Source: a virus. Taken from it: a stretch of DNA of 37,530 nucleotides. Positions 9,430-13,094 of this stretch are shown here, piece after piece; the first letter of the stretch is position 1, and each line of letters opens with the position of its first letter. The DNA is taken from the IMG/VR virus record IMGVR_UViG_3300009139_000003, positions 1 to 37,530 of that record; one strand, 5' to 3'. The notes under the pieces were generated by a model that was given only the letters and a program-made list of their open reading frames with translations, was not told where the DNA came from and did not search any database. Position numbers and translations under genes: made by a program.

Positions 9430-9450
9430 TTTATTTTTTTGGGATAGTGT

Positions 9451-9524
9451 CCGGTAAGGCTGGACTTGCACCAGCGACTTTCAAAGTTCTAGGTTTGACG
9501 CTCTACTACCTGAGCTACCCACCG
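9451..9524 (-). tRNA. tRNA-like gene with an 8-base anticodon loop
   Basis: The cloverleaf is clear. The acceptor stem is CGGTGGG with CTTACCG (7 bp, two G-U), the D stem GCTC/GAGC, the anticodon stem TCAAA/TTTGA, the variable loop AAGTC and the T stem GCTGG/CCAGC. The anticodon loop is CCTAGAAC, eight bases instead of seven (9493-9486). Aligned from the 3' side the anticodon would be AGA with T33; from the 5' side it would be TAG. The T loop TGCAAGT lacks the usual TTC start, and ACA rather than CCA follows the discriminator. It is either a functional non-standard tRNA (frameshift-type or decoy) or a decaying one. Confidence 0.65.
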
Positions 9525-9533
9525 GATAAGAAA

Positions 9534-9612
9534 TGGCCGGTGAGGCTGGATTCGAACCAGCGACCACATGAGGCGGTTCGCCTTGGTGCTCTACCTACTG
9601 AGCTACCCACCG
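9534..9612 (-). tRNA. tRNA-like gene with disturbed anticodon arm, CCA encoded
   Basis: The acceptor stem CGGTGGG/CTCACCG, D stem GCTC/GAGC, T stem GCTGG/CCAGC with the canonical loop TTCGAAT, discriminator G and an encoded CCA are all present. The 25 bases between D and T stems do not form a normal 5-bp, 7-base-loop anticodon arm. The best fold is AGGCG-AAC-CGCCT, or CCA+AGG paired to CCT+TGG with an unpaired CATG insert that leaves the 7-base loop CGAACCG. The identity is therefore undetermined. Acceptor, D and T stems match the neighbouring tRNA-like gene, so the two look like duplicates with different anticodon arms. Confidence 0.7.
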
Positions 9613-9744: not shown

Positions 9745-10296
9745 TTAGCAGGCTATCTCATCGTACCAAAGTTGAGTGGCAAACATTTTCTTGCCTGTAA
9801 AATGAACACCTACCCCTAACGTCAAATGGTCTGGCCTTACGATGTTCGCCCTGTGTCCAGGACTATTCATCCACGCTGACATCAAGGACTTGATAACATC
9901 ATCAAGAGTCGAGACGTTTTCGACTATAAAAGGAGCAACGCTGTTGTCTAGGGTGATACTGACAACATTATCACTCTTAAAATCTAGAACCGCCACGTTC
10001 TCACCTCTAGCGAAAATGCAGTTGTGTTCAGGGAATAAAAACTTGTACCTAGCCTCTCTCTTGTCAGGAAATCCATCGTGACTAATAGTGTTTCGTCTCG
10101 CCATTTCTTCCGACCACTTGCGAGCCACTATGCTAACCATCTCGTCTCGAACCATCGGCTCATCCCTGTGGTCGTTTGAATACTCGACAATTAAACGCTC
10201 GGCCTCGTGGACCTTGTCTGCTATGCCCTCGCTAGAAAACGATATTGCTAGAAAAACACCTACCAAATAAGACACAAGAAAATTAGTTGCGATCAT
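9745..10296 (-). CDS. secreted CAP-domain (SCP/PR-1-like) protein
   Basis: 183 residues. A hydrophobic N-terminus (FLVSYLVGVFLAISFS) acts as signal peptide or membrane anchor, and a CAP domain follows. CAP signatures are visible: a helix with ARKWSEEMARRN followed by ISHDGF (His), RGENVAV (Glu), and AWMNSPGHRANIV (second His). Length fits a single CAP domain. The ATG at 10296 has AGAGGAG upstream. CAP proteins are common in bacterial envelopes but unusual in phages. Its position beside the endolysin suggests action in the periplasm or outside the host cell; substrate unknown. Confidence 0.85.
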   Translation of the reverse strand: MIATNFLVSYLVGVFLAISFSSEGIADKVHEAERLIVEYSNDHRDEPMVRDEMVSIVARKWSEEMARRNTISHDGFPDKREARYKFLFPEHNCIFARGENVAVLDFKSDNVVSITLDNSVAPFIVENVSTLDDVIKSLMSAWMNSPGHRANIVRPDHLTLGVGVHFTGKKMFATQLWYDEIAC

Positions 10297-10354
10297 ACGA
10301 CGCTCCTCTAGAATAAAATATATACATCAAACATACAGCAAAATGGGGTTAATC

Positions 10355-10744
10355 ATGGGCCAAATTTATCCATCTGATAAAGCATCTGAGAATTTTAGAT
10401 ACTATGAATTCGCTTGCAAGTGTGGCGTCTGTGCATTTACAGGAATTCACATCGACCAAAGGGTTATAGCTCTAGCCCAGAAGATTAGAACCGCCCTTGG
10501 CAGGTCACTAAAAGTCAACAGCGCGTGCCGTTGTAAAGTGCATAATATGGCAGAAGGCGGCTCACCCTATTCAAAACACCTTAAGGCAAGCGGATTTGTG
10601 GCAATTGATTTGGATATCACCAAATCAACGGAAAGAGCGATTGCAACCGAGATAGCTTTGGCAATGGGAGCTTCGGTTATACCGTACAAGACGTTCATGC
10701 ATTTTGATTTTAGAGACGGACCAAAGAAACTCATCATGCTTTAG
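10355..10744 (+). CDS. M15-family peptidase endolysin
   Basis: A zinc peptidase of the M15 (D-Ala-D-Ala carboxypeptidase / L-Ala-D-Glu endopeptidase) type that cuts the peptide bridges of peptidoglycan at lysis. The 129 residues show YYEFACKCG, a VNSACRCKVHN segment, and zinc ligands H75 (SKHL), D85 (VAIDLDI) and H116 (MHFDF). No signal peptide is present, so a holin is needed to reach the cell wall. Two in-frame ATGs compete. The second (10355) has GGGG seven bases upstream and is preferred; the first (10343, four residues more) has no ribosome site. A terminator follows directly. Confidence 0.88.
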   Translation: MGQIYPSDKASENFRYYEFACKCGVCAFTGIHIDQRVIALAQKIRTALGRSLKVNSACRCKVHNMAEGGSPYSKHLKASGFVAIDLDITKSTERAIATEIALAMGASVIPYKTFMHFDFRDGPKKLIML

Positions 10745-10782: not shown

Positions 10783-11094
10783 TTAAGCTTCTGCTTCTGG
10801 CTTTGCTTCTTCTTCTGGCTCCTCTGCAAGAACTGCATCGGCCATAGTCTTCGGAGCTTTGTCCTTGAAAAATACAGATACAAATTCAAGCATGTCGAAG
10901 AACTTCTCGTAGAACTCATCGTCAACTTCTGTTTCTGTTTCTGCCGCTCTCTCCATCGCTCTCTTTTCCATCTCAGCTAGGATCTGGTCTCTGTGAACCA
11001 TTAGGTACTTTGCGAACATAGGAACAAGTAAGCCAGTGAATGACTTCAAAAGAGCAACTAACGCTTCCAACACAAGTAAAAATGCTTGTTTCAT
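10783..11094 (-). CDS. holin-like membrane protein with acidic tail
   Basis: 103 residues from the ATG at 11094, which has GGAG five bases upstream. A longer frame from 11136 lacks a ribosome site. The N-terminal 35 residues are hydrophobic (AFLLVLEALVALL, FTGLLVPMFAKYL) and can form one or two membrane helices. The middle is charged and helical, and the end is a very acidic Glu/Ala tail (EEPEEEAKPEAEA). Convergent position against the endolysin and the membrane helix suggest a holin or anti-holin; no family was recognised, so this is inference. Confidence 0.65.
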   Translation of the reverse strand: MKQAFLLVLEALVALLKSFTGLLVPMFAKYLMVHRDQILAEMEKRAMERAAETETEVDDEFYEKFFDMLEFVSVFFKDKAPKTMADAVLAEEPEEEAKPEAEA

Positions 11095-11185
11095 CTCGTC
11101 TCCAAAAAATAATAAAAGAATTAAGAGGTCAATCATGCCACAATACGTTCAAACTTAAAAATATTTTTCAACCCTAGGAGTGCTT

Positions 11186-11893
11186 ATGAAGATTCTCATG
11201 CTCATGCTTTTGCTTGTGGCCGAACACGCCATTGGCTTTACAATCGACTGGCCTGAAGATGGTAGGCATAGACCCGAGTTGGTGGCCTGTGATGATGTCA
11301 AGCAAGTGAGTTATTCTGGCTTTACTATCAAAGGCTGCTATGACTCGAATAGAATTTTTATTTTGCTAAATGGGACGAACGCGCCTTGTGCATTTTACAA
11401 GGACGCTCAATTAGCGGCTGCAAAAAGAGGGTATCTAACTATTTGTCCAGAACGAAGAAATGTAGGCAATGGTCTTGCTGCTCAGAAAGCTTTTGAGTAT
11501 CTACGTGGCAAAGGAAGTAAAGCTACAACAATATTGCTATCGGGTCATAGTCAGGGCAGTCATGGTAGCGTAGTTGGAGCATACAGACTTCAGCAAGCCT
11601 ATCCCGAATTGACTATAGATATGCTGCCAATCTTCCCTTATTTTTGGGATTTCTATAATCGTGATCGGCGCGGTGACTTCTGGGATGAACACCCAAAAAA
11701 AACCTCGGAGCTATTCCCCTTAGTCAAAGGGCGCAAGATAATCCTTCGAGGAACTAGAGATCCCACAGCGGACATTGATAAAGTTATGAGAGGATATAAG
11801 CACCTTTCTGAGCCTAAGCACCTGTTTGAAGCCAATGCAAACCACTATGAGTTCGATCCCCATTGGGAAAACCTACTCCCACTTTTTGATTAG
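11186..11893 (+). CDS. secreted alpha/beta hydrolase (lipase/esterase-like), copy 1
   Basis: About 235 residues from an ATG with AGGAG five bases upstream. The N-terminus MKILMLMLLLVAEHAIG is a signal peptide. The nucleophile elbow is GHSQG with S122. A likely acid is D192 (GTRDPTAD) and the base H220 (ANANHYEF), in the classical Ser-Asp-His order. The segment LLNGT...C...TICPE..N.G.G is shared with the next gene, showing tandem paralogy. The enzyme should work in the periplasm or outside the cell on lipid or ester substrates. Its place between endolysin and other lysis-type genes suggests a role in envelope disruption. Confidence 0.85.
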   Translation: MKILMLMLLLVAEHAIGFTIDWPEDGRHRPELVACDDVKQVSYSGFTIKGCYDSNRIFILLNGTNAPCAFYKDAQLAAAKRGYLTICPERRNVGNGLAAQKAFEYLRGKGSKATTILLSGHSQGSHGSVVGAYRLQQAYPELTIDMLPIFPYFWDFYNRDRRGDFWDEHPKKTSELFPLVKGRKIILRGTRDPTADIDKVMRGYKHLSEPKHLFEANANHYEFDPHWENLLPLFD

Positions 11894-11901
11894 GAGAAGT
11901 T

Positions 11902-12621
11902 ATGAAGTTTTTATTGCTGGCAGTGCTTTTTATTACTGGTTGTGGTGTAGAGGCTGACGATCATGACCACGGTGATCCGGTTCACGACCACCCAGAATGC
12001 GGACATCCGCATAGTGAAGAAGTTGAATGTCCGGAGACAGATAATCCTGGAGGTGGGGTAAGTATTCCTATCGAAGATCAGCTACCACCAAATCCTACCA
12101 AAGAGATTTCATCTTTAATCGTGTTGAACGGTACTACTGCTAAATGTTGGCATTACCAACCTGTCATTAACTATGCTACGGGTGTTAAAATTAAAGTCAC
12201 TTGCCCAGAGTCACCAAACACTGGTTCTGGATATGATGGACTAAACGCTTTCAAGAAATTGTATAAACAGCATCCGAACATAGTGCATGTAGTCGTGTCT
12301 GGGCACTCACAGGGAGGAGTTGGCGCAGTAGCTACGGCGTATCTAATTCAACAGGAGTTCCCAAAGCTCAGAGTTGACACGCTAGCAATACAGCCAGCAT
12401 TCTCGATGAATCCTAAGTTTTACGAATACGCTAAAAATTTGAAAGGGAAGAAAGTTGTAATGTGCGGTACCTTAGATAGTATAGTTCCGTGTTCAGGCGT
12501 TTGGGCTGGTTATGCCCATATAAAAGAGCCAAAAGAGTTTGTAACAACCGTAACTGGGCATTTCAATCCTCATAGACAGTGGATAAAATTGCTCGGAAGA
12601 TTTGATTGGGGGAAGGGATGA
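11902..12621 (+). CDS. alpha/beta hydrolase lipoprotein with His-rich segment, copy 2
   Basis: 239 residues. The signal peptide ends in a lipobox ITGC (C14), so the mature protein should be lipid-anchored. Directly after it comes a His/Asp/Cys-rich stretch (residues 19-37, DDHDHGDPVHDHPEC and further His) that looks metal-binding, then a Pro/Gly linker to about 65. The catalytic domain has GHSQG (S136), D192 (GTLDS) and H220 (TGHFNPH). Several Cys may form disulfides. It starts 8 bases after the first hydrolase with TAGGAG upstream, so both are made together. The substrate is unknown; membrane phospholipid or lipopolysaccharide esters are candidates. Confidence 0.85.
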   Translation: MKFLLLAVLFITGCGVEADDHDHGDPVHDHPECGHPHSEEVECPETDNPGGGVSIPIEDQLPPNPTKEISSLIVLNGTTAKCWHYQPVINYATGVKIKVTCPESPNTGSGYDGLNAFKKLYKQHPNIVHVVVSGHSQGGVGAVATAYLIQQEFPKLRVDTLAIQPAFSMNPKFYEYAKNLKGKKVVMCGTLDSIVPCSGVWAGYAHIKEPKEFVTTVTGHFNPHRQWIKLLGRFDWGKG

Positions 12622-12764
12622 AAACAGAAAAACATGTAGCAGCAATTATAGCATCGGGGGCTTTATGCCTCTTTATGCCTATAGCTCCTCTAGCTCTATT
12701 CTTTTGGGGATTTATAGTATTTTTTTGGGTGCTGTACCTGATAATGAGGAAAGATCCTAAGTAA
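12618..12764 (+). CDS. small two-helix membrane protein (48 aa), holin-like
   Basis: The ATG overlaps the lipoprotein stop codon as ATGA, with a G/A-rich ribosome site just before it. The product has two hydrophobic helices (VAAIIASGALCLFM and PLALFFWGFIVFFWVLYLIM) and a short basic C-terminus (RKDPK). It is too short to show homology but is translationally coupled to the two hydrolases and followed at once by a terminator. A small holin or a membrane partner of the hydrolases is plausible. Confidence 0.65.
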   Translation: MKTEKHVAAIIASGALCLFMPIAPLALFFWGFIVFFWVLYLIMRKDPK

Positions 12765-12793
12765 AAAAAGAAGCGACTTCGGTCGCTTTCTTT
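12764..12793. terminator. bidirectional terminator with TTCG tetraloop
   Basis: AGCGAC (12772-12777), loop TTCG, GTCGCT (12782-12787), with AAAGA before and TTCTTT after. It ends both the plus-strand hydrolase operon and the minus-strand spanin-like gene, whose stop codon is at 12794-12792. Confidence 0.9.
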
Positions 12794-13094
12794 ATCTTCT
12801 TATTCTACCAGCATTTGCCATTTGCTTTAACTGACCTTCTATGTTTGCCAACGACTGCACCATTTTACTGATATCTTCGCCAAGTCCATTTTGTTTGTGC
12901 TCCAAATCTCTTAACTTCTCTTTAAGCTCTGCATTCTTTTCTTCTATGACTGCGACTTGAATGCTCAAGGTCTGAATACTATCTAGCCTAGGGCTTACAA
13001 AGACTTGATAAAAAGAAATCAATCCGAGAATACAACAGCCAATCATAGCCAATGGTATCCTCGTGTCCTTGCTTACTACATTTTTAACTTCCAT
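12792..13094 (-). CDS. membrane-anchored coiled-coil protein, i-spanin-like
   Basis: 100 residues: a short basic N-terminus, one membrane helix (about 14-33, LAMIGCCILGLISFYQVFV), then a long coiled coil (about 38-95) rich in Leu/Glu/Lys/Gln. This N-in, single-helix, periplasmic coiled-coil design matches inner-membrane spanins (Rz type), and the gene lies beside the lysis genes. No outer-membrane partner is embedded in it; the lipoprotein hydrolase is the only lipoprotein seen nearby. A structural alternative is a holin-associated or XhlA-like protein. The ribosome site is weak. Confidence 0.6.
   Translation of the reverse strand: MEVKNVVSKDTRIPLAMIGCCILGLISFYQVFVSPRLDSIQTLSIQVAVIEEKNAELKEKLRDLEHKQNGLGEDISKMVQSLANIEGQLKQMANAGRIRR

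Follow-up and report, generated by a model that had tools for sequence, protein, structure and literature searches.

Paired lipase/PETase-like hydrolases beside the endolysin of a contractile-tailed phage: candidates for a role at the outer membrane

Organization of the hydrolase locus

The window analysed here comprises an entire IMG/VR record (37,530 bases) from a contractile-tailed phage (myovirus), whose marker genes include a portal (phrog_146), a major head protein (phrog_264), a baseplate J-like protein, a tape measure, a DNA polymerase and a helicase. Three plus-strand genes are found in the interval that separates the endolysin from the tail fibre genes: P1 (11186–11893), which encodes a 235-residue lipase/PETase-like α/β hydrolase predicted to be exported; P2 (11902–12621), which encodes a paralogous 239-residue α/β hydrolase predicted to be a lipoprotein; and ORF48 (12618–12764), which encodes a hydrophobic protein of 48 residues. 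The P1 start is assigned to the ATG at 11186, positioned behind an AGGAG; the called GTG start at 11180 is judged less likely. P2 also begins with an ATG preceded by AGGAG, and the ATG of ORF48 overlaps the TGA of P2 (ATGA). The sequence and hydropathy of ORF48 make a two-helix hairpin likely, and the protein may be holin-like or an accessory membrane protein; it has no Pfam family and no significant PHROG. A bidirectional intrinsic-terminator-like hairpin, found at the same place on both strands (12770–12789), closes the operon and the minus-strand gene that faces it. A promoter scan gave a result no better than shuffled sequences.

The operon is confined to P1, P2 and ORF48. Upstream, the same strand carries the endolysin (10343–10744, plus), an M15_3 peptidase without a signal peptide. 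Its assignment is solid, with a PF08291 score of 43.6 bits against a cut-off of 23.2 (3.5e-11) and a match to phrog_894 at E = 2.2e-21. The gene between endolysin and operon (10783–11136, minus) encodes a 117-residue protein with a hydrophobic to amphipathic N-terminus and an acidic C-terminus that has no family in Pfam or PHROG and is holin-like only in position and topology. The gene facing the operon (12792–13094, minus) encodes a 100-residue protein with an N-terminal transmembrane helix and a coiled coil, an i-spanin-like topology. Its matches are weak: the top PHROG is an Rz-like spanin (E = 0.007) amid many coiled-coil matches, and it resembles XhlA-type proteins too. A sequence-only reading of this DNA had described an operon with a 48-residue protein next to an endolysin, a holin-like and a spanin-like gene. 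The operon and the endolysin are confirmed, and the other two labels describe topology only.

A secreted CAP-domain protein (9745–10296, minus; PF00188 at 4e-9, phrog_16914) adjoins the endolysin and bears a remote likeness to CAP-type genes of the Bacillus phages Slash and Staley. Two neighbouring tRNA-like genes, one of them tRNA-Val(aac), are located at 9449–9612 (minus). Bdellovibrio was considered as a host but is not supported; phage phi1422 is only remotely similar, with 23–25% identity at three proteins.

Fold and family of the two hydrolases

P1 and P2 align end to end with 30% identity (E = 8e-29). The catalytic triad is S122–D192–H220 in P1 and S136–D192–H220 in P2, the Asp and His numbers coinciding, and both nucleophiles sit within a GHSQG motif. 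D192 and H220 are invariant in a three-way alignment that includes a homologue from a related phage (G012, described below), and are in register with the Asp and His of HaloPETase. The sequence-only reading, which had proposed two paralogous Ser-Asp-His hydrolases, is upheld by this alignment. All three family members also contain an invariant cysteine pair (C68/C87 in P1, C82/C101 in P2), which would fit a disulfide formed outside the cytoplasm.

By itself, P2 clears the Pfam cut-off for Lipase_3 (27.8 versus 22 bits). P1 alone has no significant Pfam match, and neither protein matched PHROGs at E up to 1. A two-sequence profile of P1 and P2 retrieves HaloPETase (9hl5) at 5e-5 and the Pseudomonas mendocina lipase (2fx5) at 0.024; with the G012 homologue added, the three-sequence profile reaches them at 1.3e-10 and 2.9e-8, respectively; the triad residues line up and an NGT(x)A motif is shared. 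The G012 homologue alone retrieves 2fx5 at 5e-12.

AF2 models of both proteins (mean pLDDT 70 for P1 and 61 for P2, with blocks of the P2 core at about 67–92) show the α/β hydrolase order. In VIA-align comparisons the P1 model superposes on 2fx5 with Z = 18.4 and an rmsd of 2.9 over 186 residues, and on 9hl5 with Z = 18.3; the P2 model superposes on 2fx5 with Z = 15.9 and an rmsd of 3.3 over 177 residues. For both models 2fx5 comes first, tied with other PETases, lipases and esterases. A structure comparison, proposed as a check alongside the sequence-only reading, thus returned lipase/PETase-like α/β hydrolases in both cases. Because sequence profiles and modelled structures agree, with both a profile match and an in-register triad, we assign P1 and P2 to the secreted P. 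mendocina lipase/PETase (cutinase-like) branch, an assignment that does not fix the substrate.

Together with 2fx5, HaloPETase1 (9hl5) and dsPETase05 (9k0h), the phage hydrolases share the α/β fold, the NGT(x)A motif, the GHSQGG elbow, the Asp and the SHFxP His in register, and secretion, predicted in the case of P1 and P2. They differ from these enzymes in being phage-encoded and duplicated, in their low identity (about 20%), shorter core and invariant cysteine pair, and in having a predicted lipoprotein anchor and a His/Cys-rich or Pro/Cys-rich stalk. A GDSL/SGNH lipase identity was rejected: the elbow is GHSQG instead, and the models align best with classical α/β hydrolases.

Predicted export and lipidation

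P1 begins with a hydrophobic segment of the Sec signal peptide type that contains no cysteine and no lipobox. P2 has the lipobox FITG/C14 with Gly at the +2 position, followed by a His/Asp/Cys-rich linker at about residues 16–66, in which His, Asp, Glu and Cys are abundant over residues 16–43 approximately. The earlier description of a plain signal peptide on one protein, and of a lipoprotein with a His/Asp/Cys-rich segment in the other, therefore agrees with the sequences. By the E. coli rule, Gly at +2 directs a lipoprotein to the outer membrane, and P2 is predicted by this rule to be an outer-membrane lipoprotein.

We scanned every possible start with a simple lipobox rule, and the island with a relaxed rule as well; the window and G012 records to which the scan was applied may be incomplete. 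Across the 37.5-kb window the scan picked out P2 alone. Among the G012 candidates only the hydrolase homologue is preceded by a ribosome-binding site, and no other is convincing. As a positive control, the same scan recovers Rz1, which is nested within Rz, from the more remote relative G060, where the cassette consists of an endolysin, a holin-like ORF and Rz/Rz1. The lipobox scan found no separate o-spanin in the window, though an i-spanin-like ORF lies nearby.

What is known of the outer-membrane step in lysis by phages of Gram-negative bacteria comes from spanins and a small number of disruptins. As with Rz/Rz1, the island combines an i-spanin-like protein with a predicted outer-membrane lipoprotein; unlike Rz1, P2 is not nested in the i-spanin-like gene and is encoded on the opposite strand. 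P2 was rejected as an Rz1-like o-spanin: it has the lipoprotein signal, but is a 239-residue hydrolase rather than a short non-enzymatic domain. Because P2 is the only lipobox ORF recovered by the scan and an i-spanin-like ORF is present, an anchored lipase could in principle replace the o-spanin, the lipoprotein hydrolase breaching the outer membrane from its inner leaflet with no spanin-driven fusion. We consider such a replacement quite unlikely.

Conserved pairing with the endolysin in a distant relative

Searches with the major head protein found no phage relatives. A four-sequence portal profile retrieved 80 loci, 15 of them at 46–67% identity to the window portal. Hydrolase profiles run against these 80 portal-related records, many of which are fragments, gave a single match, in the 45.3-kb record G012. 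This phage is well diverged from that of the window, with 49% identity in the portal, 48% in the major head protein and about 33–51% across the matched head proteins. Its hydrolase is a single-copy protein of 342 residues with the lipobox IIS/C16, a Cys/Pro-rich stalk and the motifs GNGTGARC and GHSQGG.

In both phages the hydrolase gene follows the M15 endolysin gene on the same strand: the G012 hydrolase starts 491 nt 3′ of its M15_3 endolysin, and P1 starts 442 nt 3′ of the endolysin in the window. The two endolysins are homologous (E = 1.9e-12), and among 50 portal-related records M15_3 occurs only in G012, G047 and G060. Endolysin and hydrolase are the only two of ten island proteins with counterparts in G012: the related loci contain no homologue of ORF48, the 117-residue protein or the i-spanin-like protein, and a 74-residue G012 protein does not align with the 117-residue protein. 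That these two genes have stayed together among differing neighbours speaks for a joint role, on evidence from two phages only. This linkage is the only new evidence that the hydrolases belong to the lysis programme. Because a distant relative keeps the pairing, P1 and P2 probably contribute to breaching or modifying the outer membrane at about the time of lysis. Since P2 and the G012 homologue are both predicted lipoproteins, the ancestral form was probably a lipoprotein, and P1 would have lost its lipobox after duplication.

The same adjacency could be inherited synteny without functional meaning, the hydrolases having been captured without any role in lysis. It is seen in two phages only and the hydrolase family was not recovered elsewhere, as such an origin would allow. 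We nevertheless regard this as distinctly improbable, given that the pair stayed while the window and G012 share none of the other island genes, and that, at about 30% identity, the triad and both cysteines remain invariant.

G012 also encodes a 238-residue protein with a signal-peptide-like start (L088, 18143–18859, minus) that adjoins the tail fibre and whose weak resemblance to phytase-like and strictosidine-synthase-like domains stays below threshold.

A possible role in lysis

The reading that we favour, with a probability of roughly 0.4, is that P1 and P2 act as an exported, partly outer-membrane-anchored lipase/esterase of the lysis programme. Sec would export both proteins in late infection. 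After lipidation, the Lol system would place P2 in the outer membrane's inner leaflet, where a flexible acidic linker could let its catalytic domain reach ester bonds, and P1 would be a soluble periplasmic partner. Once holin and endolysin had opened the inner membrane and the wall, P1 and P2 would cleave ester linkages in lipids of the outer membrane or in polymers attached to it, weakening or clearing the last barrier. Several points weigh against this proposal. The linkage is known from two phages only, and in the window an opposite-strand gene parts P1-P2-ORF48 from the endolysin. The presence of a putative i-spanin makes an undetected normal spanin pair possible. PETase/cutinase-type enzymes are not known to attack phospholipids or LPS.

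An anchored hydrolase could instead strip acyl or acetyl groups from an LPS, O-antigen or capsule receptor, and so block re-infection or keep progeny off debris. The same end is reached in a different way by T5 Llp and other small phage lipoproteins. The esterase fold of the models, the predicted topology of both P2 and the G012 homologue as outer-membrane lipoproteins, and the location of P1 and P2 in the window, with the endolysin on one side and tail-fibre genes on the other, would all suit receptor inactivation or superinfection exclusion. We consider this function unlikely: the nearest families are polyester and lipid hydrolases rather than carbohydrate O-deacetylases, the conserved link, with order and spacing kept, goes to the endolysin, and P1 has no anchor.

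Lipolytic enzymes with a role in lysis have precedents. LysB of mycobacteriophages is a cutinase-like lipolytic enzyme that parts the outer membrane from the wall (PMC6116114). Like LysB of D29 and Ms6, which has a cutinase-like fold and serves lysis (PMC6116114), P1 and P2 are phage Ser-Asp-His lipolytic-type enzymes, and they are GxSxG serine hydrolases encoded beside an endolysin. They differ from LysB in their predicted export by a signal peptide or lipobox, and no mycolyl-arabinogalactan substrate is expected if the host is Gram-negative. No LysB-type match was obtained in PHROG or in the sequence-profile PDB results at E up to 1; the best 50 structure-alignment matches include cutinases and no LysB, an absence that does not speak for a different fold. 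The proposed LysB counterpart thus stands as an analogy, a lipolytic enzyme beside an endolysin, and not as family membership.

Another parallel comes from a Pseudomonas syringae phage, in which a GDSL lipase is encoded upstream of holin and endolysin; the enzyme is esterase-active in a fusion, and the authors of that study suggest that it acts on the outer membrane (PMC12173070). As with P1 and P2, a lipase gene lies by an endolysin. That enzyme is GDSL-type with a carbohydrate-binding domain, and no lipoprotein is described in the parts of that report available to us, whereas P1 and P2 are of the GHSQG α/β type. The suggestion that the hydrolases represent a new type of lysis step must accordingly be narrowed: the step is not wholly new, given this earlier proposal (PMC12173070), and P1 and P2 differ from that enzyme in sequence, type, export and predicted anchoring. 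If the lysis reading is correct, a conserved, endolysin-linked and membrane-anchored lipase would constitute a distinct enzymatic route across the outer membrane. P1 and P2 provide a named gene pair for testing this and a possible source of enzymes acting on bacterial outer membranes.

Distribution and gene content of related phages

tblastn searches found no P1 or P2 homologues in 50,697 phage records, and nothing beyond one chance-level match in 72,556 plasmid records. When P1, P2 and the alignments A1, A2, A4, A6 and A9 were used to scan IMG/VR and GTDB genomes for degenerate motifs, G012 alone was recovered, through A9, which was itself built from G012. These scans catch only relatives that keep the motif, so absence from them is weak evidence.

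Two further relatives, G009 and G011, lack a hydrolase homologue. Near the tail fibre they encode a 247-residue lipoprotein with the metzincin-like motif HEVGHLMGLAD and a weak matrixin/Peptidase_M10 match (G011, L091, 2662–3405, plus; G009, L094, 6822–7565, minus). This matrixin-like lipoprotein counts against the lysis reading, since it fits equally well a slot for assorted secreted enzymes. It belongs with the possibility that P1 and P2 are a moron cargo of secreted enzymes that have digestive or host-modifying functions and either benefit the host cell or become a public good when freed at lysis. The secreted CAP-domain protein of the island and the top matches of P1 and P2, which are secreted degradative enzymes, point the same way. 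We find cargo of this kind rather unlikely in view of the conserved tie to the endolysin; moreover, no integrase or repressor was noted among the window genes checked, which are part of the total, so that any benefit to the host would be brief.

G011 also carries a row of genes (L092, 8902–12046, plus) for QueC, QueD, QueE, GTP cyclohydrolase and a queuine tRNA-ribosyltransferase-like protein, a probable pathway for 7-deazaguanine modification of DNA or tRNA.
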